From contig NZ_FOIB01000011.1 of assembly GCF_900111765.1 (NCBI RefSeq), forward strand, positions 62,001-126,000: a stretch of DNA of 64,000 bases, given 5' to 3'. The notes under the pieces are model-generated. The model was not told where the DNA came from, did no database searches, and saw only the letters and a program-made list of their open reading frames with translations. The position numbers and the translations under genes are program-made. Source of the DNA: Myxococcus fulvus. Lineage in GTDB: Bacteria > Myxococcota > Myxococcia > Myxococcales > Myxococcaceae. Of this stretch, positions 1 to 18,146 are shown piece after piece (position 1 is the stretch's first letter; each line of letters begins with the position of its first letter).

Positions 1-20
1 GGTGGTAGGACCGACCCGGC

Positions 21-1334
21 ATGGAACCCATCGTCATCCTCGGAGCGGGGCTCGCGGGCCTGTCCACCGCCCACTTCCTCCAGAAGCCCTGGCGCCTCAT
101 CGAGAAGTCCGAGCGCGTCGGCGGTCTCATCAAGACCGAGGTCATCGACGGGTGTTATTTCGACCCCACCGGCCACTGGCTCCACCTGCGCGACCCTGAA
201 ATCCAGGAGCTGGTCAACACGCGGTGGCTGCCGGGGCAGATGGTCCGCATCCAGCGCAAGGCGGGCATCTTCACGCGCGGCGTCTTCACCCGCTTCCCGT
301 ACCAGGTGAACACGCACGGGCTGCCGCCCGAGGTCGTCTCCGAGAACCTCATCGGCTACGTGGACGCCATCTACGGCGAGAAGGGCCGCGCCCTGCGCGA
401 GCGCGAGCCCCGCGACTTCGAGGAGTTCATCCTCCGCTACATGGGCGAGGGCTTCGCGAAGAACTTCATGGTGCCCTACAACCAGAAGCTCTGGACGGTG
501 CACCCGCGCGAGATGTCCGCCGCCTGGGTGGGCCGCTTCGTGCCGCGCCCCTCGCTCAAGGAGGTGGTGGACGGGGCGCTCGGCGCCGGCAGCGACGCGG
601 TGGGCTACAACGCGTCCTTCCTCTACCCGCGCGAGGGCGGCATCGAGAGCCTGGCGCGCGCCATGCTGCGCGACCTGAAGGGCGGCGAGCTCAGCCTCAA
701 CACCGAGCCCACCTCCATCGACTGGAAGGCGCGCAAGGTGGTGCTGAACGACGGCAGGACGCTGTCGTACTCGGGCCTCGTCTCCTCCGTGTCCCTGCCG
801 GGGCTGGTGCGCCTGCTGGCGCAAGGGGCCTCGGGCGTGCCCGACGAAGTGGTCGCCGCGGCGAAGCGCCTTCGCGCCACCACCGTCACCTATGTCGCCG
901 TGGCCGCGCGCGGGCCCAACCGCCAGCCCTGGCATTGGATCTACCTGCCGGAGCCGGAGTTCCACACGTACCGCATCGGCTCGCCGTCGGCCGTCTACGA
1001 CGCGCTGGCGCCCAAGGACACGTCCACCTTCTACGTGGAGTACAGCCACCACGGCGAGCTGTCCCCGGCCACCGCCGAACAGTACGCGGTGCAGGACCTG
1101 GTCCGCTCCCAGATGATCCACTCCGCGGACGACGTCCTCTTCGCCCAGGCGCGGGAGATTCCCCACGCCTATGTCCTCTACGACGAGGCCTACGGCCCAG
1201 CGAAGGCGGAAATCCTCCGTTTCCTGGAGCACGCCGGCATCCAGACGGCGGGGCGCTACGGGCAGTGGGAGTACTCGTCCATGGAGGACGCCATCCTCGG
1301 TGGGCGGGCGTGTGCCCGGACGCTGAACGGCTGA
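21..1334 (+). CDS. FAD-dependent amine oxidase / protoporphyrinogen-oxidase-like protein
   Basis: The 437-residue product opens with a Rossmann FAD site (IVILGAGLAGLSTAHFL, residues 4-20), followed by an acidic residue and a GG pair (EKSERVGGLI) typical of the amine oxidase / UDP-galactopyranose mutase superfamily. The middle section has the DPTGHWLHL and FPYQVNTHGLP patterns seen in UGM- and PPOX-like proteins. It probably oxidises or isomerises a substrate using FAD in the cytosol; the substrate cannot be told from sequence. A glycosyltransferase and a polysaccharide deacetylase follow on the same strand, which favours a role in surface glycan synthesis over heme. The family is clear and the reaction is not. 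Confidence 0.8.
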   Translation: MEPIVILGAGLAGLSTAHFLQKPWRLIEKSERVGGLIKTEVIDGCYFDPTGHWLHLRDPEIQELVNTRWLPGQMVRIQRKAGIFTRGVFTRFPYQVNTHGLPPEVVSENLIGYVDAIYGEKGRALREREPRDFEEFILRYMGEGFAKNFMVPYNQKLWTVHPREMSAAWVGRFVPRPSLKEVVDGALGAGSDAVGYNASFLYPREGGIESLARAMLRDLKGGELSLNTEPTSIDWKARKVVLNDGRTLSYSGLVSSVSLPGLVRLLAQGASGVPDEVVAAAKRLRATTVTYVAVAARGPNRQPWHWIYLPEPEFHTYRIGSPSAVYDALAPKDTSTFYVEYSHHGELSPATAEQYAVQDLVRSQMIHSADDVLFAQAREIPHAYVLYDEAYGPAKAEILRFLEHAGIQTAGRYGQWEYSSMEDAILGGRACARTLNG

Positions 1335-1424
1335 CGGACGTCTGCGACTTCCGACGCATCTTGTCGACGGGTGCCGCGCGGCATGCTAGGCGGACCGGAC
1401 TGTCGCTCGTCCGGACGTGATTCC

Positions 1425-2135
1425 ATGGCACCGCACCTGTCCGTCGTCATCCCCGTCTACAACGAGGAGTCCATCATCGCCTCGGCGGCGGAGGAGTTGC
1501 GCCAGGGGCTCGATGCGCGTGGGCTCGACTACGAAATCATCTTCGCGGAGAACGGCTCGAGGGATGCCACCACGAGCATCCTCGACGAACTCTGCGCGAA
1601 GCACCCTCGGATGCGCTGGTTCCACTCCGAGCGTCCCAACTACGGCGTCGCCCTCAAGGCCGGCATCCTCATGGCCCGGGGCACGTACGTCATCTGCGAC
1701 GAAATCGACCTGTGCGACGTCACCTTCTACGACGCGGCGCTGCCGCGGCTGGAGCGGGGTGAGGCGGACATGGTGGTGGGCTCCAAGGCGGCCAAGGGCG
1801 CCAGCGACCAGCGCCCGCTCATCCGCCGCGCGGCCACGCGGGTGCACAACAAGCTGCTCAAGGTGACGCTGGGCTTCCAGGGCACGGATACGCACGGGCT
1901 CAAGGCCTTCCGCCGCGAGGCGCTCCTGCCCGTCATCCAGAAGTGCGTGGTGGACATGGACGTGTTCGCCAGCGAGTTCGTCATCCGTGCGTGGCGCGAG
2001 GGGCTGAAGGTGATGGAGATTCCCATCCAGCTCCACGAGAAGCGCCAGCCGTCCATCCACCTCTTCAAGCGCGTGCCCAACGTGCTCAAGAACGTGGGCA
2101 AGCTGTTCTACGTCATCCGCGTGCGCGGCACCTGA
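1425..2135 (+). CDS. Family 2 glycosyltransferase (dolichyl-phosphate-mannose-synthase-like)
   Basis: The start is the ATG opening MAPHLSVVIPVYNEES, which places the GT2 nucleotide-binding beta strand right at the N-terminus; an ATG 18 codons upstream adds only low-complexity sequence. The GT-A fold features are VVIPVYNE, the FAENGSRDAT segment and an acidic metal site (ICDEIDLCD) in place of the usual DxD. The 236-residue length without membrane helices fits DPM1-like enzymes that transfer a sugar from a nucleotide donor to a lipid carrier at the inner membrane. It lies 20 bp upstream of the deacetylase, so the two are probably co-transcribed. The donor and acceptor are unknown. Confidence 0.85.
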   Translation: MAPHLSVVIPVYNEESIIASAAEELRQGLDARGLDYEIIFAENGSRDATTSILDELCAKHPRMRWFHSERPNYGVALKAGILMARGTYVICDEIDLCDVTFYDAALPRLERGEADMVVGSKAAKGASDQRPLIRRAATRVHNKLLKVTLGFQGTDTHGLKAFRREALLPVIQKCVVDMDVFASEFVIRAWREGLKVMEIPIQLHEKRQPSIHLFKRVPNVLKNVGKLFYVIRVRGT

Positions 2136-2155
2136 CGCGAAGGGGAGGGCGCGCC

Positions 2156-3097
2156 GTGACGAGGATTGCGTCCATCTCCGTCGACCTGGACTCGCTGCCG
2201 CACTACTGCCGCATCCACGGGCTGCCGGAGTCGCTCCTGGACGCGCGCGCCCGCTCGCTGGTGCACCAGGTGGCGGTGCCTCGCTTCCGCGAGCTCTGGG
2301 ACGCGCTCGGCGTGCCCGGCACCTTCTTCGCCATCGGCGAGGACCTGGAGTCGGACCCCGTCGCCGCCGCTGGCATGCGCGCCGCCCACGAGGCGGGCAT
2401 CGAGGTGGCGAGCCACAGCCACGCCCACGACTACGCGCTCACGCGCCGGGCGCCGGACGCCATCCTCGCGGACCTGCGCCGCGCCGATGACGTCATCCTC
2501 CAGGCCACGGGCACGCGCCCGGTGGGCTTCCGCGCTCCGGGCTACACGCTCAACGCGGACCTCTACGCCGCCACCCAGACGCTGGGCTACCAGTACGGCT
2601 CCTCCGCCTTCCCGGCCGCGCCGTACTACGCGGCGAAGGCGGCGGTGATGGGGGCGCTGGCTCTCGTCGGACGGCCCTCCCGCTCGGTGCTCGACACGCC
2701 CCGGGTGCTGCTCGCGCCGCGCGTGCCGTACCGACCGGACCCCGCGAATCCCTACCGGCGTGGCACCGGCTCCGTGCTGGAGCTGCCCATGGCGGTGACG
2801 CCCGCGCTGCGCTTCCCGTTCATCGGCACCTTCGCCACCACGCTGCCCCTGCGCTCGTTGAGGGGCGCCTGGCGCGCGTGCCGGCGCGACGCCTTCTTCA
2901 ACTTCGAGCTGCACGGGGTCGACGTGCTCGACGCGACGGACGGCATCCCCGGCGAGCTGGTGCGCCAGCAGCGGGACTTGCGCGTCGGGGCTGGCCGGAA
3001 GCTGGAGCGGCTGCGCGAAATCTTCGGCTGGCTGCGCTCGGAGTGCGACGTCGTCACCCTTCGCGACGCGGCCGGGCGCCTGTCCGCGAGCGTCTGA
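2156..3097 (+). CDS. Polysaccharide deacetylase family protein
   Basis: A GTG start is chosen because AGGGGAGGG lies just upstream and the protein then begins with the first catalytic beta strand (ASISVDLDSLP, Asp10 and Asp12). The second NodB-homology motif is HSHAH at residues 87-91, with the metal-binding histidines present, and motif 3 is FRAPGY at 125-130. At 313 residues it matches single-domain carbohydrate esterase 4 enzymes that remove N-acetyl groups from sugars. No signal peptide is visible, so it probably acts on cytosolic or lipid-linked intermediates. It follows the GT2 gene by 20 bp, supporting a shared glycan pathway. Confidence 0.85.
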   Translation: MTRIASISVDLDSLPHYCRIHGLPESLLDARARSLVHQVAVPRFRELWDALGVPGTFFAIGEDLESDPVAAAGMRAAHEAGIEVASHSHAHDYALTRRAPDAILADLRRADDVILQATGTRPVGFRAPGYTLNADLYAATQTLGYQYGSSAFPAAPYYAAKAAVMGALALVGRPSRSVLDTPRVLLAPRVPYRPDPANPYRRGTGSVLELPMAVTPALRFPFIGTFATTLPLRSLRGAWRACRRDAFFNFELHGVDVLDATDGIPGELVRQQRDLRVGAGRKLERLREIFGWLRSECDVVTLRDAAGRLSASV

Positions 3098-3100
3098 GCC

Positions 3101-3805
3101 TCAGCGCGCCACCGCGGGCGAGCCGAGCACGTCCACCACCGCGTCGTGCACGCGCCGGTCCGTGAGCATCCACGGGTGCAGCAGCACCGGGAACCTTCGC
3201 TCGCTGGCGCCAGGAAGCCGCGAGCTGGAGGCAGGGAGGATGGTCAAATCCCACGGCGTCCAGAAGCTGTGCACCTCCGTGGCACCCCAGGGGCGCGGGT
3301 CCTGCTGGAGCGCGCGCAAGAGCCGGCTGCCCGGGCGCATCTGCGTCACGCCCTTGCCGCGTCCCAGGAACGCCAGGCCCGTGCCCGCGTGGGGCCCGGA
3401 GATGGAGATGAAGCGCCGCACCACCAGCCTGCCGCCCAACAGTTGCACCCAGTAGCGGCTGACCAGTGCCCCCATGCTGAAGCCCACCACGTCCACGCGT
3501 CGGGCGCCGGTGCGCGCGCGCAGCGCCTCGGCCTCCCGCGCCACCTGCCGCGCCAGCGCGGGGATGCCCTCGCTGCCGTTGTTGGGGACCAGGGAGATGG
3601 CGTGGACGTGCGGCCAGCCCTCCTGCTCCAGCCGGCCGCGCAGGGCGTCGAAGGCGCTGGCGTCGTCACCGATGCCGTGTACCAGCAGCACCGGCGCGCG
3701 CTGCTCCACGGGCGCCAGCCGCGGCGACACCGCGAGGGACGCCGCCGTCATGGCGCACCCCTCGCAGAACCACGCCAGGGCCAGCAGGACGAGCATCGCG
3801 CGCAT
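3101..3805 (-). CDS. Secreted or lipid-anchored alpha/beta-hydrolase (lipase-like)
   Basis: The product has 234 residues and a short N-terminal hydrophobic signal (MRAMLVLLALAWFCEG). The mature part has LLVHGIGDD (oxyanion region) and GFSMGALVSRYW, whose GxSxG serine is the expected nucleophile. This is the pattern of triacylglycerol lipases and extracellular esterases of the EstA/LipA type. A cysteine follows the signal (CEGCAM) but the lipobox is poor, so secretion and lipidation are both possible. It is convergent with the deacetylase, with 3 bp between stop codons. The substrate is unknown. Confidence 0.75.
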   Translation of the reverse strand: MRAMLVLLALAWFCEGCAMTAASLAVSPRLAPVEQRAPVLLVHGIGDDASAFDALRGRLEQEGWPHVHAISLVPNNGSEGIPALARQVAREAEALRARTGARRVDVVGFSMGALVSRYWVQLLGGRLVVRRFISISGPHAGTGLAFLGRGKGVTQMRPGSRLLRALQQDPRPWGATEVHSFWTPWDLTILPASSSRLPGASERRFPVLLHPWMLTDRRVHDAVVDVLGSPAVAR

Positions 3806-4156
3806 GCAGGGCGGGACATGGCGATGTCACTCCCCGCTCGCAAGGGACCCCGGAGGCATCCGTCCACGCGAGGCGATGGCGCATACCCCTTCCGTCACGC
3901 AGTGCACTCCCGGTCGTCCACGAAGGGTCCCCATCGGCATCCACGCGACGAAACGGCCCCGCCCGTCGCTCACTCCCCTTCCTCGGAGCCTACACCCAGG
4001 GGCGCCCCGGTCGCGCCAGCCCCTCGGCATCCCCGGGGATGGCCGCCCTTCACGGACTGTCCGGAGCCCAACGCCACGCCCCCGGGCCCGGGCCCGGAGC
4101 GGGGGAGGGTTTCTCCACTCCCGGTGGAAGGGCCGGTGGTGTAAAGAGCCGGGACC
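3806..4156. other. Intergenic region, no gene recognised
   Basis: This 351-bp spacer between divergent genes has no reading frame with a plausible start or protein-like composition. Its right half contains GC-rich inverted segments such as CCCCCGGGCCCGGGCCCGG. It must hold the promoters for the lipase-like gene and the acyltransferase, but no convincing -35/-10 or -24/-12 pair was found. Confidence 0.5.
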
Positions 4157-5011
4157 ATGCTGGAGCGACTCGGCGACCGAGTGAAGAAGGGCCTGCGCGA
4201 CTGGACCGACCGCCTGGCCAACGACGAGCAGAAGGAACGGATGCTGGCCCTGGCCCGGCCGCAGAACGAGTACGGGGTGGACCCCTTCGGGTACAACCTG
4301 GACTTCAGTCTGTCCGCCGTGGCGCCCTTCCTGTGGCTCTACCGCAACTACTTCCGCGTGGAGACCTTCGGCGTGGAGAAGGTCCCCGCCGGCCGCGTGC
4401 TCCTGGTGTCCAACCACTCCGGGCAGCTGCCGCTGGATGGCGCCATGATTGGCGTGTCGCTGATGCTGGAGGCCAGCCCCCCCCGCGCCATGCGCAGCAT
4501 GGTGGAGAAGTGGGTGCCGTCGCTGCCGTACGTCTCCACCTTCATGGCGCGCATGGGGCAGATTGTCGGCACGCCGGAGAACTGCCGTCGGCTGCTCGAG
4601 TCCGACGAGGCCATCCTCGTCTTCCCGGAGGGGCTGCGCGGCATCAACAAGCTGTGGCCCCAGCGCTACCAGCTCCAGGAGTTCGGCCTGGGCTTCATGC
4701 GCCTGGCGCTGGAGACTCGCACGCCCATCGTCCCCGTGGCCGTCGTGGGCGCCGAGGAGCAGGCCCCCGCGCTCATGGACCTGAAGCCGGTGGCGAAGCT
4801 GCTGGGCTTCCCGTCCTTCCCCATCACCCCCACGGGCGTGCCCTTCCCGCTGCCCACGAAGTACCGCATCTACTTCGGGGACCCGATGCACTTCTCGGGG
4901 CGCCCCGACGACGAGGACAGCGAGCTGGACAAGAAGGTCCGCACCGTGAAGGCGGCCATCCAGTCCATGCTCCACCAGGGCCTCAAGGAGCGCCGCGGGG
5001 TGTTCTGGTGA
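4157..5011 (+). CDS. PlsC-like lysophospholipid acyltransferase
   Basis: The 284-residue protein carries the acyltransferase block I as NHSGQLPLDG, an NHx(5)D-type motif, and block III as FPEGLRGINK. These motifs bind the acyl donor and the glycerol-phosphate acceptor in the PlsC/LPLAT family. No full transmembrane helix is obvious, so it is probably a peripheral inner-membrane enzyme esterifying a lysophospholipid or another lipid alcohol. The neighbouring epimerase gene starts 40 bp downstream and may share its transcript. The exact substrate cannot be read from sequence. Confidence 0.85.
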   Translation: MLERLGDRVKKGLRDWTDRLANDEQKERMLALARPQNEYGVDPFGYNLDFSLSAVAPFLWLYRNYFRVETFGVEKVPAGRVLLVSNHSGQLPLDGAMIGVSLMLEASPPRAMRSMVEKWVPSLPYVSTFMARMGQIVGTPENCRRLLESDEAILVFPEGLRGINKLWPQRYQLQEFGLGFMRLALETRTPIVPVAVVGAEEQAPALMDLKPVAKLLGFPSFPITPTGVPFPLPTKYRIYFGDPMHFSGRPDDEDSELDKKVRTVKAAIQSMLHQGLKERRGVFW

Positions 5012-5051
5012 GCGATTACGCCCGGAGTCGGGGGACCAAGAGAGTGCAACC

Positions 5052-5975
5052 ATGAGACCGGCCGTCGTCGTCACGGGCATCAGCGGCAACCTCGGCCGTA
5101 CCCTCGCCAAGCTCCTCCACAAGCACGAGCGCATCATCGGCATCGACCGGCGTCCCTTCGTGGGCCGGCCGAAAGACGTGGAGATGTACGAGCTGGACCT
5201 GCGCAAGAAGAAGGCGGAGGACGTCTTCCGCAAGAACGAGGTCCGCGCCGTCATCCACATGGGCATCATGCATGACCCGCGCATGAGCGAGGAGGAGCAC
5301 CACTCGTTCAACGTCGTGGGCACCACGCGGCTGCTGGAGTACTGCGCGAAGTACGGCGTGAAGAAGGTGGTGGTGCTGTCCTCGGCCAACGTCTACGGAC
5401 CCAGCCCGGACAACTCCAACTTCCTCACCGAGGACGCGCCGCTCATGGCGGCCAGCCGCTTCTCCGGCGTGCGCGACTTGATTGAAGTGGACATGCTCGC
5501 GCATGGCTTCTTCTGGAAGCACCCGCACATCGAGACGGTGATTCTCCGGCCCGTGCACATCGTCGGGCCCACCATCAAGAACGCGCCCTCCAACTACCTG
5601 CGCCTGCGCTACCCGTGGATGATGGCGGGCTTCGACCCGATGATTCAGCTCATCCACGTGGAGGACGTCGCCCGCGCCATGGTGGCCGCGCTCCGGCCCG
5701 AGCCCAAGGGCGTCTACAACGTGGTGGGCCCGGGCGAGGTGCCCCTGTCCGCGGTGATGCGCGAGCTGGGCAACTCCCCCATCCCCGTGCCGCACCCGGT
5801 GGCCCGGCCCCTGTTGGGCATGCTCTTCAAGTACCGGCTGGCCAACTTCCCGCCCCCGGAGTTGGACCACATCCAGTTCCTGTGCGCCGTGGACGGCAGC
5901 CGCTGGGTGCAGGACGTGGACTGGAAGCCCCGCCACTCCATGCGCGAGACCATCCGCGCGGTGAACGGCGAGTAG
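5052..5975 (+). CDS. NAD-dependent epimerase/dehydratase (extended SDR)
   Basis: The Rossmann motif VTGISGNLGRTLAKLL (residues 7-22) fits the TGxxGxxG signature of extended short-chain dehydrogenases. Later features are the VIHMGIMHD strand, a catalytic-type serine and tyrosine region (VLSSANVYGPSPD) and a substrate-binding part containing HVEDVARAM. The 307-residue length is normal. It likely epimerises or dehydrates a nucleotide-linked sugar or a related hydroxy compound; the classic YxxxK is not clear, so the activity is uncertain. It is the last gene before the non-coding locus at 6.0-6.4 kb. Confidence 0.8.
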   Translation: MRPAVVVTGISGNLGRTLAKLLHKHERIIGIDRRPFVGRPKDVEMYELDLRKKKAEDVFRKNEVRAVIHMGIMHDPRMSEEEHHSFNVVGTTRLLEYCAKYGVKKVVVLSSANVYGPSPDNSNFLTEDAPLMAASRFSGVRDLIEVDMLAHGFFWKHPHIETVILRPVHIVGPTIKNAPSNYLRLRYPWMMAGFDPMIQLIHVEDVARAMVAALRPEPKGVYNVVGPGEVPLSAVMRELGNSPIPVPHPVARPLLGMLFKYRLANFPPPELDHIQFLCAVDGSRWVQDVDWKPRHSMRETIRAVNGE

Positions 5976-6001
5976 CCTCCAGACCCCGGAGGAAAGTCCG
6001 A

Positions 6002-6069
6002 GGGTCCCCTGACACGGTTGTCGTGCCTGGCACGACGCCGAAGGCTGGACCCTCTGACACGAGTGTCAG
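6002..6069. promoter_or_regulatory. Cluster of dyad sites, candidate enhancer for the sigma-54 promoter
   Basis: A perfect 17-bp odd palindrome, GTCGTGCCTGGCACGAC, lies at 6020-6036, and CTGACAC-GA-GTGTCAG at 6054-6069 is a second perfect dyad. The half-site CTGACAC occurs once more in direct orientation at 6009-6015. The sites sit about 100-160 bp upstream of the -24 element at 6168, the normal distance for a bacterial enhancer-binding protein. The symmetry is seen directly; the binding protein is unknown. Confidence 0.5.
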
Positions 6070-6167
6070 GACCCCGACGGCCCCACCCCCGGACTGTCGG
6101 CGCGCCCGCCTCGCAAGCCCTTGAATCTCCAGGTGAGGCAGTGCGGGCCGGCCGGTGCTCGGGCGCG

Positions 6168-6183
6168 TGGCATCGCCATTGCT
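6168..6183 (+). promoter_or_regulatory. Sigma-54 (-24/-12) promoter
   Basis: The sequence TGGCATCGCCATTGCT matches the sigma-54 consensus TGGCAC-N5-TTGC at the invariant GG and GC, with the correct 10-base spacing between them, and has an exact TTGC at -12. The single difference in the -24 hexamer is T for C at its last position. Transcription would begin near 6194 and read into two tandem hairpin units with no open reading frame between. Confidence 0.65.
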
Positions 6184-6250
6184 CTAGTGGCCGGCGTCAC
6201 CGCGCGGCGACGCGGGCCTGTTCAACACCGTCGCCCCGCTCACATGTCAG

Positions 6251-6391
6251 GGCGCTCCATGGGGGAGCTCCCGACGCCCATCGACTCGGCCGGCCCCGAG
6301 CCGATGGGCGGATTCTTGTAGGGCACTCCATTGGGGAGTTCCCGACGCCCACCGCCTCGGCCGGCCCCGAGTCGGTGGGCGGTTTCTTTTT
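6251..6391 (+). repeat. Two tandem 70-nt structured units with compensatory changes
   Basis: Unit 1 spans 6251-6320 and unit 2 spans 6321-6391. In both, a small hairpin (GCTCC/GGAGC in unit 1, ACTCC/GGAGT in unit 2) precedes a long stem with CTCGG/CCGAG at its top and a CCGGCC loop. Pair G6254-C6268 becomes A6325-T6339, and pair T6281-A6304 becomes C6352-G6375. Both changes keep pairing, so the units look selected as RNA. Confidence 0.75.
6347..6391 (+). terminator. Rho-independent terminator
   Basis: The stem pairs GCCCACCG (6347-6354) with CGGTGGGC (6373-6380) and CTCGG with CCGAG around one internal mismatch and a 6-nt loop. It is followed by GGTTTCTTTTT. The T tract abuts the stop codon of the convergent lipoprotein gene, so the same stem could also end transcription from the other side. 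Confidence 0.7.
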
Positions 6392-6807
6392 CAGCGCAGC
6401 TCGTCCGCGAACGGCCCCTCGTCCTGACGCTCCAAGAGCCACGTGCCGTGCTGGTAGACGAACTCCGACGTGACGACCGAGACGTGCTCGGACGCGGAGG
6501 GCAGGCGCATCCACTGGATGCGGCTCTGGATGAAGGCCCGCGTGCCGTCCTCGGACAGCTGCCCGTCCTCGATTTCGTAGTCGGTGATGCTCAAATCCCG
6601 CTCGTCGTTGAGCGCGATGCGGGCCTTGGTGAACGCCTTGCGCTTCTCCGGGACGATGAAGCGCGCCGCGGACCGGAAGTCCTTCCAGCGGATGACCTGA
6701 TGGAACTGCTCCACCGTGGGCTTGAGTTCTTCCAGGTTGGATTTCTTGGATACGGTTGCGCACCCGGACAGGGCCAGGACGAGGAAAAGGGCAGGCAGGC
6801 GATTCAC
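6391..6807 (-). CDS. Small lipoprotein of unknown function
   Basis: With the GTG start at 6807 the protein begins VNRLPALFLVLALSGC, a signal peptide ending in a good lipobox (LSGC), giving a 138-residue lipoprotein. Longer upstream starts add arginine- and proline-rich sequence that would bury the signal. The mature part contains EELKPTVEQFHQVIRWKDF and a mixed alpha/beta segment that may be an NTF2-like or DUF4440-like fold; this is only an impression. It is convergent with the candidate sRNA and divergent from the large TPR gene. Confidence 0.7.
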   Translation of the reverse strand: MNRLPALFLVLALSGCATVSKKSNLEELKPTVEQFHQVIRWKDFRSAARFIVPEKRKAFTKARIALNDERDLSITDYEIEDGQLSEDGTRAFIQSRIQWMRLPSASEHVSVVTSEFVYQHGTWLLERQDEGPFADELR

Positions 6808-6898
6808 GAGGGGGACGGTAGCATCCGGCGCCCGCCCCGGACGAGGGCAGGGTGCTATGGTCCGGCTCCTCGCCCGAGCACCGGAGTCGCAAGCCCTC

Positions 6899-9800
6899 AT
6901 GGCCAAGTCGATGGTGGAGCGCTACGAGCAGCTCCTCCGGCAGGACCCCACTTCTTCCGTTTTCGTCGAACTGGCCAAGGCCCTGCTGGAAAAGGGGGAC
7001 GCGCCGCGCGCCATCGAGGTGTGTGAGCAGGGTGTCTCGCACCATCCGTCCTCGACGGTGGGCCGGGTGCTCTGGGGCAAGGCGCTCATCCAGCTGGGCC
7101 GCCCCGCGGAGGCGATGGAGCAGTTCGACCGCGCCATCGCCATCGAGAAGGACAACCCCTACGCCTACAACCTGATTGGCGAGGTGTTGCTGCAGCGCGG
7201 GCTGTACCGCTCGGCGCTGCCGATTCTGCGCAAGGCCGTGGCGCTGCAGCCCAACGACGGCCGCGTGAAGCTGTGGCTGGAGCAGGCGCAGCAGGCCCTG
7301 GCCGGTGGCCCGGCGCCGGTCTTCGCGGACCTGATGGGGCTGGAGAAGGCCGAGTCCGAGGAGGGTGAGTCCGAGCCTGACGCCGCGAAGCCCGAGAGCG
7401 CCGAGGGTGCTCCCGCCGCCGCGTCGCCCATGGCGGCCGCGAGGCTTCGCGCCGCGGCGCTCGGGGATGCCGCGAAGGCCGCGAGCGCCTCGGGGCCTGG
7501 GGCGTCGAAGAGCGCGGGCGCGCGGGCCGCCGCGGACCTGGCGAGCGCCGCCGCGGCGGGTGGGCACGCGAGCCCGGGCGATGCGGGTGCTCCGGGCGGG
7601 GAGGATGCGTCCTCGACGGAGGAGGGCGGCGCCCAGGCTTCTCTTGGGGCGCCGGGCGATGCGTCCGACGCGGAGACGTCGTCGTCTGATTCCCTCGGGT
7701 TGATCGACCGGCAGGTGCCGGTGCTGCAACCCACGTCGGGCACCCCGCTTCCGAGCCTGGAGCTGTCCCTCTTCGACGAGGAGGACGGAGCCCGTTCTCC
7801 GGACGCGAATGCACCGGCGGGGGAGGGCGCCGACGCGGGTTCCTCCCAGGAGGGTCAGGCGTTGGACCCGGCCGCCTTCGAGAGCGGTCCCAGTGCGTCC
7901 TCCGATGCGGGCGCTGTGTCCGACGAGACCAGCGAGCAGGCGCTGCTGCGCTCCAGCGAGTTCACCACCGCCAAGCCGGTGGTCCCCGCAGCGTCCACCG
8001 ACTCGACCGAGTCGGATGAAGAGCAGGCGCTGCTGCGCTCCAGCGAGTTCACCACCGCCAAGCCCGTGGTCCCCGCCGCGTCGGGCGGGCTGCTGGGGGA
8101 TTTGCCTCCACCCGACCCCACCGCCGCCACGCCCGTTGTCGCGCGCGCGCAGCCCCAGGCGCGTGGCTCGGGCTCCAAGCGCTCGCTGCTGGAGGACTTG
8201 CCCGACGCCTCGGACGCCACGGCCGCCACCGGCCGCGCGAAGGCTGGCGCGCCCAAGCAGGACACCGAGGCGCTCACCGCCGCCTACGAGAAGGAGCTGC
8301 GACAGAAGCTGGCGCGCGAGGCGGCCAAGACGTCCTTCCTGAAGCGCAACGGCGTGAAGGTGGCCGGCGCCGCCGTGCTCCTGATGGTGGTCATCGCCGT
8401 CATCGTCGGCGTGGTGCGCATCCGCGCGGCCACCGGTGGCCAGACGCTGAACGAGGCCCTGGCCAAGAGCGAGGACCTCATCACCCAGGACACGCGCGCG
8501 TCGCTGGATGGGGCGCTGCAGCAACTGGACCGGGCGCTGGACATGGACGAGAGCAGCAGCCGCGCGTGGGCCCTCAAGGCCTGGACGCACGCGCTGCTCT
8601 TCGCGGACCACGGCCTGTCCCCGGAGGACCGACTCAAGGCGCTGGAGGCCCTGGAGAAGCCCGGGGTGAAGGAGGCCGCGCCGGGCCTGACGCTCGCCAC
8701 CAACGTCCTCGTGGCGGATGACCGGGGCCGCGAGCCCGCGCGCCGCGCGCTGCTCGCCGCGACGGAGGAGAGCACGGAGGTCCACGCGCTGGCCGCGAGC
8801 CTGCTGCTGGCCGCCAAGGACGAGAAGAAGGCGCTGGAGCGCTTCGACCGCGCGCTGAGGGCCTCGCCGTCGAACGTGCGCGCCCTGGTGGCGCTGGGGG
8901 GCTACTACCTGGCCTCCGAGGACTTCCCGCACGCCATCGAGATGTTCGGCAAGGCGCGCACCAAGTCCCCCAAGCACTCCGTGGCGCGCATCGGTCAGGC
9001 CGAGGCGCGGCTCGCGCTGGAGCAGGACCTGGAGGCGTCGCTCTCGGACGTGGCGCCCCTGGCCGGAAGCCCCGAACTGCCCGCCGCGCTCGGCGCTCGA
9101 CAGCAGCTGGTGCACGGCCGGCTCCTGTCCGCCGTGGGCAAGCACGACGAGGCCCGCGCGCTGCTCGCCAAGGGCACGCAGGGGCCGCTGGCCTTCGACT
9201 TCCAGCTCGCGCAGGGCGCGGCGAGCCGGGCCGCCGGGAAGCTGGACGCGGCGCAGTCCGCGTACGAGGCGGCGCTGAAGCTGCAACCCAAGAGCGACGA
9301 GGCCCGAGAGGGGCTGGGCCGCACGTTGCTGGACAGGGACCGGGAGCGCGACGTGCTCACCCGTCTGGAGGCGGACGGCGGCCGCAAGGTGGCGCTGGTG
9401 CGGGGCACCGCGTACGCGCGGCTCGGAGACTGGAAGCGCGCTCGCACGGAGCTCGCGCGCACGCGGGTGAACGAGCGCTACCCGCCGGAGGCCGTGTCGC
9501 TGCTCGCGCTGGCGGACGCGGCGGAGGGCAACGCGGCGCAGGCCCGCGAGCTGCTCGAGAAGGCGCTGGCCGCGAGCAAGCGCCCGCGCAACGACATGCG
9601 ACTGGCGCTGGGGCAGGTGTACTGGCGCGAGCGCGCCTTCGACAAGGCGCAGTCCCAGTTCGAGGAGGCGCAGAAGGACCCTCGGGACTACGAGGCGTCG
9701 TGCTCGCTGGGCCGGCTCCTGCTGGCGCGCGGCCTGCCGGACATGGCGCTCAAGCCGCTGACGCAGGCGGTGGAGCGCAACGGCTCGCACGGCGAGGCGC

Positions 9801-10675
9801 GCGACGCGCTGGGGCGCACGCTGCTGGCGCTGGGGCGCACGCCGGAGGCCCTCAAGCAGTTCGAGACGTGGCAGCTCGACAACCCGGGCAGCGCGGATGC
9901 GCACAAGGGCTTCGCGCTGGCGCTCTTCCACTCCGGGCGTCGCAAGGAGGCCGAAGGGGCCGCGGGGCGCTCGGCGAAGCTGGCGCCGGACGACGCCGAG
10001 GCCCACCGGCTGCGCGCCGCCATCCTCTTCGCCGCGGGCGACGCGAAGGGCGGCTTCTCCGCGCTGGAGCGCGCCAACAAGCTCAACCCGAAGGACCCGG
10101 ACACCTTCTGCGAGATTGCCCACGCCTTCCTTCGCCAGGGCAACCCGGACAACGCGGACGCGGCCTTCGCGGCGGCGCGGCGCGAGGGACCGGACGCCAC
10201 GTGCGGCCGGGTGGGGGAGCTCTACGCGCAGCTGCCCAGCGGAGGCCGTCCCGCGGCGCGGACGCTGGAGGACCTGGCCTCGCGCGCGCCCACCGTCTGG
10301 GACAAGGCCTTCGCCCAGGCCACCATGGCCCGGGTGCTGCTCGGGGCCGGCGCGGTGAAGGAAGCGCGGACGGCGGCGGAGGAGGCCGTGCGGCTGGCGC
10401 CGTACCAGGGCCGCTCGCACCTGGCGCTGGGCATGGTGGCGCTCAAGCAGCGCCAGGAGCCCGTGGCCAAGGCGTCGCTCTTGAAGGCCGTGGAGCTGGA
10501 GCCCACGGACGGACTGGCGCACCTGGCGCTGGCGGACGTGCTGGTGCGCGAGTCGGCGGAGCTGCCCCGGGCGGTGGAGTCCTATGAGGCCTTCCTCCGA
10601 CTGGCCGGAGGAAGCGAGGATGCGGGCCGCGTGAAGAAGGCTCTGCCGTCCCTCAAGAAGAAAGCGGCCCGCTAG
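6899..10675 (+). CDS. Large TPR-repeat membrane protein
   Basis: The start is the ATG opening MAKSMVERYEQLLRQDP. The first ~140 residues are TPR units (for example AIEVCEQGVSHHPSSTVGRV). They are followed by a ~310-residue Ala/Ser/Glu-rich linker, a single transmembrane helix (VAGAAVLLMVVIAVIVGVV, near residue 490) and a long C-terminal array of TPR-like helices to residue 1258. The layout suggests an inner-membrane scaffold with TPRs on both sides of the membrane. Large TPR proteins serve in motility, secretion and development in myxobacteria, but no specific role can be assigned. The linker carries a recent internal duplication (separate entry). Confidence 0.8.
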   Translation: MAKSMVERYEQLLRQDPTSSVFVELAKALLEKGDAPRAIEVCEQGVSHHPSSTVGRVLWGKALIQLGRPAEAMEQFDRAIAIEKDNPYAYNLIGEVLLQRGLYRSALPILRKAVALQPNDGRVKLWLEQAQQALAGGPAPVFADLMGLEKAESEEGESEPDAAKPESAEGAPAAASPMAAARLRAAALGDAAKAASASGPGASKSAGARAAADLASAAAAGGHASPGDAGAPGGEDASSTEEGGAQASLGAPGDASDAETSSSDSLGLIDRQVPVLQPTSGTPLPSLELSLFDEEDGARSPDANAPAGEGADAGSSQEGQALDPAAFESGPSASSDAGAVSDETSEQALLRSSEFTTAKPVVPAASTDSTESDEEQALLRSSEFTTAKPVVPAASGGLLGDLPPPDPTAATPVVARAQPQARGSGSKRSLLEDLPDASDATAATGRAKAGAPKQDTEALTAAYEKELRQKLAREAAKTSFLKRNGVKVAGAAVLLMVVIAVIVGVVRIRAATGGQTLNEALAKSEDLITQDTRASLDGALQQLDRALDMDESSSRAWALKAWTHALLFADHGLSPEDRLKALEALEKPGVKEAAPGLTLATNVLVADDRGREPARRALLAATEESTEVHALAASLLLAAKDEKKALERFDRALRASPSNVRALVALGGYYLASEDFPHAIEMFGKARTKSPKHSVARIGQAEARLALEQDLEASLSDVAPLAGSPELPAALGARQQLVHGRLLSAVGKHDEARALLAKGTQGPLAFDFQLAQGAASRAAGKLDAAQSAYEAALKLQPKSDEAREGLGRTLLDRDRERDVLTRLEADGGRKVALVRGTAYARLGDWKRARTELARTRVNERYPPEAVSLLALADAAEGNAAQARELLEKALAASKRPRNDMRLALGQVYWRERAFDKAQSQFEEAQKDPRDYEASCSLGRLLLARGLPDMALKPLTQAVERNGSHGEARDALGRTLLALGRTPEALKQFETWQLDNPGSADAHKGFALALFHSGRRKEAEGAAGRSAKLAPDDAEAHRLRAAILFAAGDAKGGFSALERANKLNPKDPDTFCEIAHAFLRQGNPDNADAAFAAARREGPDATCGRVGELYAQLPSGGRPAARTLEDLASRAPTVWDKAFAQATMARVLLGAGAVKEARTAAEEAVRLAPYQGRSHLALGMVALKQRQEPVAKASLLKAVELEPTDGLAHLALADVLVRESAELPRAVESYEAFLRLAGGSEDAGRVKKALPSLKKKAAR
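7934..8088 (+). repeat. In-frame duplicated linker segment inside the TPR gene
   Basis: A ~63-bp segment encoding EQALLRSSEFTTAKPVVPAA occurs at 7934 and again at 8021, a period of 87 bp (29 codons). The copies differ at very few bases, mostly silent, so the duplication is recent or conserved. It lies in the disordered linker before the membrane helix. Confidence 0.85.
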
Positions 10676-10676
10676 C

Positions 10677-11048
10677 GTGAGGAATCCTCCCCCCGGCTCG
10701 GGGCCCGAGTCCCCGTTGCTGCGAATCATGTGGGGCAACGCCTTCCTGCTGTCGGCGCTCTACCTGTTGGTGGGCGTCGTGGTGGAGCTGGCGCTGCGCT
10801 ATTTCCCCTCGCTCTTCCTCCAGCGGCTGTCGCTGTCGCTGGACTCGCTGCCCGCGCGGGCCCTGGAGCTGATGGGGGCGATGGAGCCCTTGCGCACGGC
10901 GTACTTCAACGGGCGCATCCCCGAGTACGCGGTGCGCCTGGTCTTCGGCCTCACCACGGTGGCGGTCATCTTCCTGCTCGCGCTGGTGGTGGGCACCGTC
11001 ATGGGCACCCTGCGCCACCTGCTCTCCCGGCGCACCCGGGGCGCCTGA
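10677..11048 (+). CDS. Small two-helix membrane protein
   Basis: A GTG start 2 bp after the TPR stop gives 123 residues; the ATG at 10728 is an alternative that removes only a proline-rich lead. Two hydrophobic segments, AFLLSALYLLVGVVVELAL and LTTVAVIFLLALVVGTVMG, should form membrane helices, with a basic C-terminus (RHLLSRRTRGA). No family is recognised. The tight spacing to the TPR gene suggests one transcript and perhaps a membrane partner for it. Confidence 0.7.
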   Translation: MRNPPPGSGPESPLLRIMWGNAFLLSALYLLVGVVVELALRYFPSLFLQRLSLSLDSLPARALELMGAMEPLRTAYFNGRIPEYAVRLVFGLTTVAVIFLLALVVGTVMGTLRHLLSRRTRGA

Positions 11049-11064
11049 GCGAAGGTCCCGCCGT

Positions 11065-13146
11065 TCAGTCGGTGCCCAGCGCGCGGCGGATGCGAGGCTT
11101 CTTCGCGCGCGCCGCGGCCATGGGCGCCACCTGCGGCTCGTGTCCCGCGGCGCGGGCCATGAGGCAGATCTCCACCACCTTGGGCCCGAAGCGCTCCCAG
11201 CGGCTCTCCCCCGTGCCCTTCACCGTGAGGAAGCCCTCCCGGTCGATGGGGAGCGCCGCCGCCAGACCCAGCAGCGTCGCGTCGTTGAAGATGATGAAGG
11301 GCGCGACGCCCAAATCCTTCGACAGCTCCTTGCGCCAGCGGCGCAGCTCCGTGGAGGCCAGCTCGCTGTAGTTCGTCACCAGCGGCGCGGCGGCCGCGGC
11401 GCGGGCGCGGGAGGCGGACGGCCCACCCGACAGCAGCACCGGCATCTTCGCGGGCGCGCACACGTCGCAGTTGCCGCAGGCGGTCTCCACGTCCTGCTGG
11501 CCGAAGTAGTGGAGGATGGCACCGCGCCGGCAGCGCGAGTCCCGGTCCGCGTAGGCGTAGTCCGTCATCCGCCGCAGCAGCTGGAGGTTCTGCCGCTCCT
11601 GCTCGCGCACGTGGGACAGGTCCATGCCCAGCTCCCGGAAGGGCATCCGCAGGAGCGCGCGGATGGAGCGCCCCGAGAAGGGCCTGCGCACCCGCACCAC
11701 GCCCGCCTTCTCCAACAGCCCCAGCGCGTGCCGCGTCTCGTCCACCGACAGGCCGATGCGGCGCGCGAGGATGGTCAGCTCCGTGGTGGCCTGACGGCCG
11801 ATGGGGAACGTCTCCACGAGCGACTTGAGCAGCCGCTGCGCGTCCGGGGAGTGGGGGTGCGCGGCCTGGGCCTTCTCCGTCAGCAGCACCCCGTGCTCCC
11901 CCTCGCCCCGGCCGCCGCGCTCGAGCTTCCCGGCGCGCTCGAAGATGCGCAGCGCCGCGGACACCTCGAACTCGCTGGCGTTCACCATGCCCGCCAGCAC
12001 GTGCACGCCCCGCTCGAACTCCTCCACCGACTGGAGCACGCCCCACACGTCCGCCAGCACCGCCTCCGAGGGGTGGCTGCCCTGGATGAGCCGCTCCTGG
12101 GTGTACACGTCCGAGTGGTTGAACAGCAGCACCGCCCGCGCCTCCCCACCGTCGCGGCCCGCGCGGCCTATCTCCTGGTAGTACGCCTCCACCGCGCGCG
12201 GGATGTTGGCGTGCGCGACGAAGCGGATGTCCGGCTTGTCGATGCCCATGCCGAACGCGTTGGTGGCCACCGCCACCGCGTCCGGGGTGGACATGAAGGT
12301 GTCCTGCGCTCGCCGGCGCGCGTCGTCCTCCATGCCCGCGTGGTACAGCACCGCCTTGAGCTTGCGCCCGTGCAGCTCCGAGAACACGCCCTCCGCGGCC
12401 CTTCGCGTGGAGCAGTAGATGATGCCGCTGCCCCCCAGCGCCGCCAGGCGCGCGCACGCCTCGTGCCGGTCCGTGTCCCCGCCCACCTCCTGCTTGCCGA
12501 GGAAGAGGTTGGGCCGGTCGAACCCCATGGCGAACTCGCGGGGCTCCTTCATGAGCAGCACCCGGACGATGTCCGCGCGCACCTCCGGCGTGGCCGTGGC
12601 GGTGAGCGCCACCGTGCGCGGAGGCCGCAGCCGCTTACGCACCTGGCCCAAGAGCGCGTAGTCCGGCCGGAAGTCGTGGCCCCACTGGGAGATGCAGTGC
12701 GCCTCGTCCACGGCGAGCAGGTCCACGCCCACGTCGGTGACCATCTGCACGAAGCTCGCGCTGCGAAAGCGCTCCGGCGCCACGTACAGCAGCTTGTACT
12801 CACCGCCGCGCAGCCGGCGCATCCGCTCCGCCCGCTCCAGGTCCGTCAGCGACGAGTTGATGAACGTGGCGGAGATGCCGCGCGCGGTGAGCTGCTCCAC
12901 CTGGTCCTTCATCAGCGCGATGAGCGGCGACACCACCAGCGTCAGCCCCGGCAAGAGCGTGGCCGGCAGCTGGTAGCACAGGCTCTTGCCGGCGCCGGTG
13001 GGCATCACCACCACGGTGTTGCGCCCCGACAGCACGGTGGAGATGACCTCCGCCTGTCCCGGACGGAACTGCGTCAGGCCGAAGTGGCGCACCAGGCCCT
13101 GCTGGGCTTCTTCGAGATAGGGCAGGGCCACCGACATCGCTCGCAT
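11065..13146 (-). CDS. recQ: RecQ-family ATP-dependent DNA helicase
   Basis: The order of motifs is that of RecQ: the Q-motif region FGLTQFRPGQAEVI, Walker A MPTGAGKSLCYQLPA, DEAH box VDEAHCISQWGHDFRPDY, TATATP and a helicase C domain with AFGMGIDKPD and QEIGRAGRDG. A zinc-binding/winged-helix region follows (YADRDSRCRRGAILHYFG, then CGNCDVC). It is about 693 residues from the chosen ATG; ATGs at 13182 and 13137 are alternatives, and an AGGATGGTGG stretch precedes the inner ones. RecQ unwinds 3'-tailed DNA in recombination and fork repair. The C-terminal ~100 residues are less conserved and lack a clear HRDC domain. Confidence 0.92.
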   Translation of the reverse strand: MRAMSVALPYLEEAQQGLVRHFGLTQFRPGQAEVISTVLSGRNTVVVMPTGAGKSLCYQLPATLLPGLTLVVSPLIALMKDQVEQLTARGISATFINSSLTDLERAERMRRLRGGEYKLLYVAPERFRSASFVQMVTDVGVDLLAVDEAHCISQWGHDFRPDYALLGQVRKRLRPPRTVALTATATPEVRADIVRVLLMKEPREFAMGFDRPNLFLGKQEVGGDTDRHEACARLAALGGSGIIYCSTRRAAEGVFSELHGRKLKAVLYHAGMEDDARRRAQDTFMSTPDAVAVATNAFGMGIDKPDIRFVAHANIPRAVEAYYQEIGRAGRDGGEARAVLLFNHSDVYTQERLIQGSHPSEAVLADVWGVLQSVEEFERGVHVLAGMVNASEFEVSAALRIFERAGKLERGGRGEGEHGVLLTEKAQAAHPHSPDAQRLLKSLVETFPIGRQATTELTILARRIGLSVDETRHALGLLEKAGVVRVRRPFSGRSIRALLRMPFRELGMDLSHVREQERQNLQLLRRMTDYAYADRDSRCRRGAILHYFGQQDVETACGNCDVCAPAKMPVLLSGGPSASRARAAAAAPLVTNYSELASTELRRWRKELSKDLGVAPFIIFNDATLLGLAAALPIDREGFLTVKGTGESRWERFGPKVVEICLMARAAGHEPQVAPMAAARAKKPRIRRALGTD

Positions 13147-13195
13147 GTCCACCATCCTGGTCCAGCCGTCAACGCAAACCACACCCCGCCACCCC

Positions 13196-13441
13196 TCACA
13201 GCTCCAGCCCCGGCGGCACGGGGACGGCCAGGCGGGCCCTCCTCCGCGCCACCTCCAACACCCTCAGCGCCGTGGCCTCCGGCTCCACGCGGCCGTCCAC
13301 CACCACGTCCCCCTCGCGCGCGTCCGCCGGGAGCGCGGCCCGCTCCACCACGCAGGCCCGGCCGCTCTCCAGCCGCACCACCTGCGCCCGCGTGTCCTCC
13401 AGCAACTCCACCTGCACCAGCCCCACCAGACATCCCGCCAT
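13196..13441 (-). CDS. DUF3006-like small protein
   Basis: This 81-residue protein (starting MAGCLVGLVQVELLEDTRAQ) has the layout of DUF3006 proteins: a short beta-rich segment, then LPADAREGDVVVDGRVEP. The start codon overlaps the radC stop by one base (TGATG), which implies translational coupling. DUF3006 proteins are often encoded next to metallo-beta-lactamase or ComEC-like genes; the pairing with radC is less usual. The function is unknown. Confidence 0.7.
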   Translation of the reverse strand: MAGCLVGLVQVELLEDTRAQVVRLESGRACVVERAALPADAREGDVVVDGRVEPEATALRVLEVARRRARLAVPVPPGLEL

Positions 13442-14220
13442 CACCCACGTCCTCCCGCCGCGTTCCATTCCCGCTTCGCCTCCCACTCCCCGTCCGGGAG
13501 CAGGCCTCGCTCCAGCATCGACACGAAGCCGCCGTCGCCCACCACCAGGTGGTCCAGCACCTTCACGTTGAGCAGCCTCGCGCCCGCCACCAGGTGCCGC
13601 GTCAGCGCCACGTCCTGGACGCTGGGCTCCGGGTCCCCCGAGGGGTGGTTGTGCGCCAGGACGATGGCCGTCGCCCGGGACACGAGCGCCGCGGCGAACA
13701 CCTCCCGCGGGTCCACCGGGCACGTGTTCATGGTGCCCTCCGCCACCCGCGCGTCATGCACCAGCACGTTGCGCGTGTTGAAGCACAGCACGTGGAAGAC
13801 CTCGCGCCTCAACCCCGTGAGGCCCGGCGTCAGGTACGTGTGAATCTCCTGGGGAGAGCGCAGCCGGGGCCTGCGCTCCGGCGTCCTCTGCGCGCGCCGC
13901 CCCAGCTCCAGCGCCGCGAGCACCTGCGCCGCCCGCCGCGGCCCCAGGCCCGGCACGTGGGCCAGCTCCACCGGCTCCGCCTGCAACAGGGCCTTGAGTC
14001 CCCCGCAGCGCTTCAACACCGCGAGGGCCGCCTCCATCGCGCCGCGCGAGCCCGAGGCCGCGCCCCACGCCACGCACAAGAGCTCCGGGTCCGTGAGTGC
14101 CCGCGCTCCCAACCGGAAGAGCCGCTCCCGGGAGGACTCGGCGTCCACTCCCTTCCGCGCGCCCCTCGACTCCTCGACCACCTCATCCGCCGCCCACGCC
14201 TCGCCCATCCGCCACCCCAT
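13441..14220 (-). CDS. radC: RadC-family JAB-domain protein
   Basis: From the ATG opening MGWRMGEAWAADEV (preceded by AAGGTGGGCGGG) the protein has 259 residues. It has an N-terminal helix-hairpin-helix region (LAHVPGLGPRRAAQVLAALE) and a C-terminal MPN/JAB domain with the RadC signature AHNHPSGDPEPS and the upstream glutamate-containing strand. JAB metalloprotease-like residues are intact. The role of RadC remains unsettled; links to DNA repair are debated. It is followed by the overlapping DUF3006-like gene. Confidence 0.9.
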   Translation of the reverse strand: MGWRMGEAWAADEVVEESRGARKGVDAESSRERLFRLGARALTDPELLCVAWGAASGSRGAMEAALAVLKRCGGLKALLQAEPVELAHVPGLGPRRAAQVLAALELGRRAQRTPERRPRLRSPQEIHTYLTPGLTGLRREVFHVLCFNTRNVLVHDARVAEGTMNTCPVDPREVFAAALVSRATAIVLAHNHPSGDPEPSVQDVALTRHLVAGARLLNVKVLDHLVVGDGGFVSMLERGLLPDGEWEAKREWNAAGGRG

Positions 14221-14389
14221 CCCGCCCACCTTCACCGGCGATTGAGCAAGGCGTGTGCCCGCTGTCTCTACCTGGAGCGTGATGTGCCTACCCATCCCGA
14301 CCCGCGCGCCAGCGGCCCGTCCGCCGGACTGTCACCGCCCGCCACGGGCCTGCCGCCCGACGAGCGCCGGGCCGTGTCCAGGCTTTGTC

Positions 14390-14848
14390 TCAGAAGCGGG
14401 AGATGGCGAAGAACGATTTGATCTTGTCGTTCGTCTCGCGAAGTCGCTCGCTCAGCGTCCGGACGAACGTCCACAGCAGGACGTACGCCAGGTCCTTGTC
14501 GGTGAACATGAGCTGGTCCAGCTTGGAGCGCTCGATGACCCACACCGCGCAGCTGATGTGGGCGATGGCGTCCGCGGAGCGGGGCGAGTCCTCGATTACC
14601 GCCATCTCACCGAAGTACTGGCCGGCCTCCAGGATGGCGAGCGCCTCCTCGCCGATGCCGGGCACGGACTTGGAGATGCGGACCTTGCCCCGGGAGATGA
14701 CGAACATCTCCTGGCCGGACTCCCCCTCGCGGAAGAGGAAGGCGCCCGCAGGGTAGTCCCTGGTCTGGCCGAGTTGAGCCACCTTGGCGAGCTGGCCCTG
14801 GGTCAAACCCTCGAACAGCGCAACCTTCTTGAGGAGCTCGGCATCCAT
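14390..14848 (-). CDS. Cyclic nucleotide-binding domain protein
   Basis: The 152-residue protein is essentially one cNMP-binding domain of the CRP/PKA type. It has the roll YPAGAFLFREGESGQEMFVI, then GEMAVIEDSPRSADAIA, matching the phosphate-binding cassette GE(L/M)A...RSA. A short C-terminal helix follows, and there is no DNA-binding helix-turn-helix. It therefore probably senses a cyclic nucleotide and acts through a partner protein. It is divergent from trxB with an 80-bp gap. Confidence 0.85.
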   Translation of the reverse strand: MDAELLKKVALFEGLTQGQLAKVAQLGQTRDYPAGAFLFREGESGQEMFVISRGKVRISKSVPGIGEEALAILEAGQYFGEMAVIEDSPRSADAIAHISCAVWVIERSKLDQLMFTDKDLAYVLLWTFVRTLSERLRETNDKIKSFFAISRF

Positions 14849-14927
14849 GAGGCCAGCTTCGTATCACGCGCCCGAGGGCCTCTGGTACCTTCGCGGCCTC
14901 AACGAGACAAGAGGGAAGGAGCCACCC

Positions 14928-15893
14928 GTGGCGGAGGAGAAGATCAACAAGGTGACCATCATCGGCTCGGGGCCGGCGGGCTACACTGCGGCCATCTATG
15001 CCGCGCGCGCCAACCTGGAGCCCGTGGTGTTCGCCGGTGGGCCCACGCTGGAGCACCCCCAGCGCGTGCCGGGCGGGCAGCTCATGGTGACCACGGACGT
15101 GGAGAACTACCCGGGCTTCCCGGAGGCCATCACCGGCCCGGAGCTGATGGAGCGCTTCCAGAAGCAGGCGGAGCGCTTCGGGACCGCCATCCACATGGAG
15201 AACGTGGTGAAGGTGGACTTCAGCTCGCGCCCGTTCCTGCTGGAGAGTGAGAGCGGCCTGCGCGTGCGCTCGGAGACGGTCATCATCTCCACCGGCGCCA
15301 CGGCCAAGTGGCTGGGCGTCAAGGGCGAGGACACGTACAAGAACCGCGGCGTGTCCGCGTGTGCCACGTGTGACGGCGCGTTCTTCAAGAACCAGGAGGT
15401 CCTCGTCGTCGGCGGCGGCGACACGGCGATGGAGGAGGCCACGTACCTGGCGAAGATCGTCAAGCACGTCACCCTCATCCACCGGCGCGACTCGCTGCGC
15501 GCGTCGAAGGTGATGCAGGAGCGCGCGCTCAACAACCCGAAGATCTCCTTCCTGTGGAACTCCGCGGTGGAGGAGGTCCAGGGCGACGCGAAGGGGATGT
15601 CCGGCGCGGTCGTGCGCAACCTCAAGACGGGCGACAGCCAGCTCGTCAAGGCGACGGGCCTGTTCGTGGCCATCGGCCACACGCCGAACACGGAGCTGTT
15701 CCAGGGCATCCTGGAGACACACCAGGGCGGCTACCTCAAGACGGTGCCGGGCAGCACCCGCACGAACATCCCCGGCGTCTTCGCTTGTGGTGACGTGCAG
15801 GACAGCTACTACCGGCAGGCGATCACGGCGGCGGGCACCGGCTGCATGGCGGCCATCGACGCCGAGCGCTGGCTCATCGAGCACGGCGAGTAG
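14928..15893 (+). CDS. trxB: Thioredoxin-disulfide reductase
   Basis: The GTG start is preceded by GAGGGAAGGAG. The 321-residue protein has the FAD site IIGSGPAGYTAAIYAARANL, the redox pair CATC (Cys145 and Cys148), the NADPH site VVGGGDTAMEEATYLAKI and the C-terminal FAD contact GVFACGDVQD. These are the hallmarks of bacterial TrxB, which passes electrons from NADPH through FAD to thioredoxin. A strong intrinsic terminator follows. Confidence 0.95.
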   Translation: MAEEKINKVTIIGSGPAGYTAAIYAARANLEPVVFAGGPTLEHPQRVPGGQLMVTTDVENYPGFPEAITGPELMERFQKQAERFGTAIHMENVVKVDFSSRPFLLESESGLRVRSETVIISTGATAKWLGVKGEDTYKNRGVSACATCDGAFFKNQEVLVVGGGDTAMEEATYLAKIVKHVTLIHRRDSLRASKVMQERALNNPKISFLWNSAVEEVQGDAKGMSGAVVRNLKTGDSQLVKATGLFVAIGHTPNTELFQGILETHQGGYLKTVPGSTRTNIPGVFACGDVQDSYYRQAITAAGTGCMAAIDAERWLIEHGE

Positions 15894-15927
15894 CTAGCCC
15901 GCGCAGCGCCGCGTGACGCATGCTCCA

Positions 15928-15965
15928 GGCCGGTCCGCTCCGAAGAAGAGCGGGCCGGCCTTTTT
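15928..15965 (+). terminator. Rho-independent terminator of trxB
   Basis: A 13-bp stem pairs GGCCGGTCCGCTC (15928-15940) with GAGCGGGCCGGCC (15948-15960), with one T-G wobble and a 7-nt loop. TTTTT follows directly. It is one of the clearest intrinsic terminators in the window. Confidence 0.9.
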
Positions 15966-16017
15966 CGCGTCGAGCCGGGACACACGCGCCCGGGAACGGA
16001 CTCGAGGACCCTCTCTC

Positions 16018-18143: not shown

Positions 18144-18146
18144 GCC

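Follow-up and report, generated by a model that had tools for sequence, protein, structure and literature searches.

A probable small non-coding RNA gene preceded by a sigma-54 promoter element, conserved across the Myxococcaceae and distinct from Pxr

By comparative sequence evidence, an intergenic stretch of a Myxococcus genome is very probably a gene for a small non-coding RNA that is kept in nearly every Myxococcaceae genome searched, is preceded by a sigma-54 promoter element, and has been multiplied into tandem copies in Myxococcus. It is not the known developmental RNA Pxr. As no transcript has been seen, this reading rests on sequence alone, and we place its probability at about 0.88. 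The window in which the stretch lies comprises 64,000 nucleotides (G000:C11:62001-126000, where G000 denotes the Myxococcus fulvus assembly GCF_900111765.1) of a 10.8 Mb genome. A prior sequence-only reading had proposed a sigma-54-dependent, structured small RNA here, independent of or related to Pxr, and our analysis supports the first part of that proposal at the level of sequence.

Results

Organization of the locus

The stretch lies between an NAD-dependent epimerase gene (5052-5975) and a convergent lipoprotein-like gene that has no Pfam match and ends at 6391, with an acyltransferase gene further upstream and a TPR gene further downstream. The latter encodes a near-identical repeated stretch, EQALLRSSEFTTAKPVVPAAS, twice in its low-complexity part (window 7900-8090). 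A -24/-12 element with GG-N10-GC spacing precedes two direct repeats of 69 nt, which are 88% identical and 71 nt apart, and each of which holds a 15-nt inverted repeat that is 93% complementary (Table 1). Each unit consists of a stem-loop with a five-base loop (SL1), a two-nt linker and a long G+C-rich, terminator-like hairpin. The stretch 6194-6391 folds better than all 200 shuffles tested (z = -4.7). A generic terminator scan of positions 1-20000 did not list the last hairpin, probably because its stem holds a mismatch.

Table 1. Coordinates of features at the locus, in window numbering
Position	Strand	Feature	Sequence or detail
6010-6036		Possible second enhancer site	Degenerate TGACACGGTTGTCG (6010-6023) overlapping an inverted repeat GTCGTGCC-T-GGCACGAC (6020-6036)
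6055-6068		Candidate enhancer-binding site, about 100 bp upstream of the -24 element	Palindrome TGACACGAGTGTCA
6168-6183	+	Sigma-54 promoter element, 10/12	TGGCATCGCCATTGCT; GG at 6169-6170, GC at 6181-6182; predicted +1 at 6194
6194-6391	+	Predicted full-length two-unit transcript, about 198 nt	A shorter form ending near 6319 is expected if unit 1 terminates
6202-6239	+	5' leader hairpin SL0	Seen in lineages with a long leader
6249-6317		Direct repeat, unit 1
6250-6272	+	Unit 1 stem-loop SL1	Loop AUGGG (6259-6263)
6275-6319	+	Unit 1 terminator-like hairpin (6275-6310)	Cap CGGCCGGCCCCG at 6287-6298; weak U-tract GATTCTTGT
6320-6388		Direct repeat, unit 2
6321-6343	+	Unit 2 stem-loop SL1	Loop AUUGG (6330-6334)
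6346-6391	+	Unit 2 terminator hairpin (6346-6381)	Cap CGGCCGGCCCCG at 6358-6369; strong U-tract TTTCTTTTT; ends at the stop codon of the lipoprotein-like gene

Conservation and genomic context

A blastn search found the element in 95 of 96 genomes of the family, representing 26 of 26 genera, and the one genome that gave no match (G053) is 79% complete. Matches judged to be chance or unresolved (L027-L030) or duplicates (L001, L031, L034-L036) were set aside before the counts on 95 loci. In 81 of these the epimerase lies upstream on the same strand and the lipoprotein-like gene is convergent downstream, and 76 of 95 show all four flanking genes within the fetched stretch. Some of the remainder are cut by contig ends, although there are real exceptions. 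Three loci of genus g37 show no epimerase or acyltransferase (L051, L052 and L088, the last showing none of the four genes), L097 and L099 show no epimerase, and in six loci of genus g40 (L060-L062, L064, L080, L085) 1.4-2.3 kb of DNA separates the RNA from the lipoprotein-like gene. In L099 (genome G104) the lipoprotein-like and TPR genes lie on the other side of the RNA, suggesting a local rearrangement.

Notably, conservation is far stronger in the element than in its surroundings. Within the 27 genomes of the Myxococcus genus, mean pairwise identity is 94.4% for the last unit and 86.3% for the promoter, but 68.9% for the leader, 57.1% for the 120 nt upstream and 46.1% for the 60 nt downstream; the 130 nt before the upstream stretch rise to 75.5%, which we take to run into the epimerase gene. 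A pattern scan of one genome for each of 84,980 species returned 55 stretches, whose titles are Myxococcus, Pyxidicoccus, Corallococcus, Archangium, Hyalangium, Citreicoccus and MAGs of Myxococcaceae, Archangiaceae, Cystobacterineae or Myxococcales, with three that are vaguer or odd (Deltaproteobacteria, Proteobacteria, Comamonas). M. xanthus AM003 carries two units. With respect to a mobile origin, there was no hit in viral contigs, plasmids or phages.

Tandem copies and U-tracts

The 95 loci hold 135 units. The 68 loci outside the Myxococcus genus show one each, whereas the 27 loci inside it have two (15 loci), three (11) or four (1), with a spacing of 71 nt (37 times) or 70 nt (3 times). 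One case is unresolved: in genome G097 (L100, L181) the two matches sit at contig ends and may be one locus split by assembly or a tandem pair, and it is counted here as one unit. Genome G041 has a genuine second, diverged locus (L180, G041:C6:375221; 70.8 bits) with its own 11/12 sigma-54 element and an upstream TGACAGGCGTGTCA palindrome, and genome G143 has a second, weak match (L175; 48.6 bits) with only a 9/12 sigma-54 site.

In 27 of 27 arrays the last unit has more T in the ten bases after the stem than any internal unit. Counted over nine bases that include the last stem base, internal units average 4.25 T (n = 40), terminal units 6.00 (n = 27) and single units 6.81 (n = 68), although on this count one internal unit ties with the terminal value and one single value (2 T) comes from a unit cut by a contig end. 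We read this pattern as selection for, or tolerance of, read-through into multi-unit transcripts, which is an inference.

Promoter element and candidate activator site

A GG-N10-GC element with at least 10 of 12 consensus matches lies within 220 nt upstream in 93 of 95 loci, and one with at least 9 in 94, whereas 17 of 2,400 mononucleotide-shuffled stretches (12 of the 95 loci, 200 times each) reach 10. The one poor element (L088) scores 8/12. The distance from the element to the SL1 loop motif falls into two classes, 25-36 nt (35 loci) and 66-80 nt (59 loci). In 29 of the 35 short-leader loci the element sits 25-27 nt before the loop motif, which puts the predicted start about 7-9 nt before SL1, so the basic RNA is about 70 nt. 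In most of the long class an extra 5' hairpin (SL0) is present, and its inner stem covaries across 44 distinct leaders; four long leaders of other genera (L037, L047, L049, L095) were left out as not alignable. A sigma-54 domain was found in 12 of 13 genomes tested, the exception being G102, a 94% complete reduced genome that nonetheless has the RNA.

Sigma-54 promoters require an enhancer-binding protein, and a candidate site for such a factor recurs upstream. The dyad GACA-N4-TGTC is the commonest in the 230 nt upstream of -24, being present in 16 of 26 genus representatives, while the highest count for any such dyad in 200 shuffle rounds was 6. This comparison used one locus per genus, the stretch overlaps the epimerase end in some, and six of the 95 loci have under 230 nt upstream. 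TGAC-N6-GTCA is found in 15 of 26 representatives, either form in 20 and neither in 6, while the full TGACA-N4-TGTCA is present in only 11 of 26 and in 59 of 95 loci; no shuffles were made for TGAC-N6-GTCA, either form or the full palindrome. In the genome as a whole the full palindrome occurs at only 8 places (reversed control, 1). Of these, only the site described here has a sigma-54 element of 10/12 or better within 450 nt; four others have only 9/12 sites, one of which (L165) appears to overlap a start codon, and three have none. A wider regulon was not apparent.

Structure and distant relatives

On an alignment of 110 distinct units, 99.2% of cells are paired and 12 of 22 pairs show double-sided changes, amounting to 206 cells against a shuffled mean of 59, and both hairpins covary. 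None of 500 shuffles reached the pair count, cell count or score, and sliding the partner left at most 4 such pairs. In contrast, the number of further pair types does not exceed shuffles (25 against 23.4; 88 of 500), and one pair, columns 38-63, is unpaired in 10 of 110 sequences. The cap CGGCCGGCCCCG is identical in 110 of 110 units. The AUNGG loop keeps A, U and the first G in all and the second G in at least 90%, while N takes all four bases (T 73, G 37, A 23, C 2 of 135).

A covariance model, which replaced weak blastn hits in other families, matched 101 of 145 genomes of the order, namely 95 of the home family, one of a family labelled f2 and five of a family labelled f3. A search of 195 genomes of the phylum gave the same number, 101, although both searches used strict filters and scored few candidates per genome, so that absence elsewhere is weakly tested. 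The f2 and f3 RNAs, which were not used to build the model, on inspection keep the cap and an AUNGG loop while the closing base pair changes from C-G to G-C or A-U. Their best upstream sigma-54 scores are 9 to 12 of 12, with two of seven reaching only 9, a value that shuffles also reach at times. None of the four flanking genes was detected in the fetched flanks of the f3 loci, whereas f2 has the epimerase upstream.

Relationship to known RNAs

No Rfam 15 family matched in the window at the gathering score, and at permissive E-values the lowest was ncS035, with 17 bits against a threshold of 79. Pxr (PMC5568312, PMC5684412) shares with our element a sigma-54 promoter element, an intergenic position, several hairpins and a terminator, is reported only from myxobacteria, and has tandem paralogues reported in Cystobacter (PMC5568312). 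However, one published 20-nt pxr primer site is found with at most one mismatch at another locus in 27 of 27 genomes of the genus (G000:C1:1275055 in the present genome), six of six tested primers match exactly in one of them (L128), and blastn of our element against the genome's own pxr locus gave no hit inside pxr even at E up to 10. Published Pxr lies between nla19 and an NADH dehydrogenase gene, with its activator gene pxrR next door, whereas the four flanking genes checked here include no such regulator. The pxr of this genome has a sigma-54-like element TGGCACGGCGACTGCT upstream, a C-rich first loop, and a GCGGCCCG core in its third stem.

With respect to decoy RNAs of the CsrB/RsmZ type, which also appear to carry repeated stem-loops with a fixed loop motif, the loop here is AUNGG rather than GGA and is followed by a base that differs between families, and CsrA was found in 0 of 1 genome (the control responded in 3). 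Hfq was found in 0 of 6 genomes (the control responded in 5). The Qrr RNAs of Vibrio seem likewise to combine sigma-54 control with several similar copies, but those copies are probably dispersed and Hfq-dependent, while here they are tandem behind one promoter element. GlmY/GlmZ, which appear to be sigma-54-controlled RNAs with upstream dyad activator sites, probably use TGTC-N10-GACA rather than TGACA-N4-TGTCA.

Discussion

Taken together, these observations support a stand-alone small RNA gene in which the promoter element and a two-hairpin RNA of about 70 nt are conserved as one package, with a palindromic dyad recurring upstream and, in the Myxococcus genus, head-to-tail repetition of the unit with weaker internal U-tracts. 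We infer that an enhancer-binding protein of the NtrC type docks on TGACA-N4-TGTCA-like sites and opens a sigma-54 promoter, and that transcripts of one or several units are made, ending mainly at the last terminator. The small-RNA reading and sigma-54 control are each held with high confidence. Less certain is the inference that the RNA acts through its two fixed apical loops, AUNGG and the CCGGCC cap, by binding an RNA-binding protein or by loop-loop contact with partner RNAs, extra units raising dose or valency. In its favor, almost every base outside the loops is paired, the free base inside AUNGG fits a structured or protein-bound loop better than a pairing seed, the unit multiplies in tandem, and no Hfq or CsrA was found in the few genomes tested. 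Nonetheless, no partner protein, enhancer-binding protein or target was identified (targets were not searched for), and we regard loop-mediated titration over classical antisense pairing as roughly an even proposition. A more speculative and on balance unlikely extension is a multivalent decoy of a new kind for bacteria without detectable Hfq and CsrA, in which the AUNGG pentaloop of a sigma-54-switched array is read by an undiscovered RNA-binding protein and leaky internal terminators set how many binding sites each transcript carries; the palindromic GGCCGGCC in the cap could in addition let units kiss one another.

Of the alternatives, a classical trans-acting antisense RNA that pairs by a linear seed with ribosome-binding sites remains possible, though less favored. 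Most characterized bacterial small RNAs probably work in this way, and on inspection CUCC in SL1 resembles an anti-Shine-Dalgarno stretch, yet the linker between the hairpins is two nt, nearly all of the unit is paired, and the fixed bases lie mainly in and beside the apical loops, with the central base of AUNGG varying freely. It is unlikely that the element is only a terminator for the convergent epimerase and lipoprotein-like genes, duplicated in some genomes. Its position between convergent genes, where a terminator is expected anyway, its U-tract at the stop codon and the strong synteny are in keeping with that view, but the cap is not a general terminator cap, as only the two units among 19 genomic copies show the hairpin and T context on inspection, none of the four flanking genes was detected near the RNA in the f3 loci, and three g37 loci show no epimerase or acyltransferase.

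The related possibility that the region is only the 3' end of the epimerase mRNA without conserved structure fails, given the covariation and the f3 flanks. Paralogy with Pxr is very improbable on the evidence above. A small protein encoded in the stem-loop region is the least likely of all. The sequence-only description of the stretch as lacking a reading frame was loosely put, since mechanical ORFs cross it (for example 6121-6321 and 6018-6473 on + and 6197-10738 on -) and one frame has a stop in only 1 of 135 units. However, the unit spacing of 71 or 70 nt is not a multiple of three and shifts the frame from copy to copy, ATN in the loop is ATG in only 37 of 135 units, and both stem sides covary.

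We recognized no description of this RNA in the papers examined (including PMC5568312, PMC5684412, PMC10217877 and PMC11928866), although only open-license papers were searched and prior description cannot be excluded; a 50-genome ncRNA study (PMC11109978) names no myxobacterium in its main text. A candidate regulatory small RNA other than Pxr, kept in 95 of 96 family genomes and present in M. xanthus, highly conserved and with a candidate activator site, would open RNA regulation in a main model of bacterial multicellularity to direct test. Moreover, the graded copy number and weaker internal U-tracts make it a natural series for asking how tandem small RNA arrays evolve.
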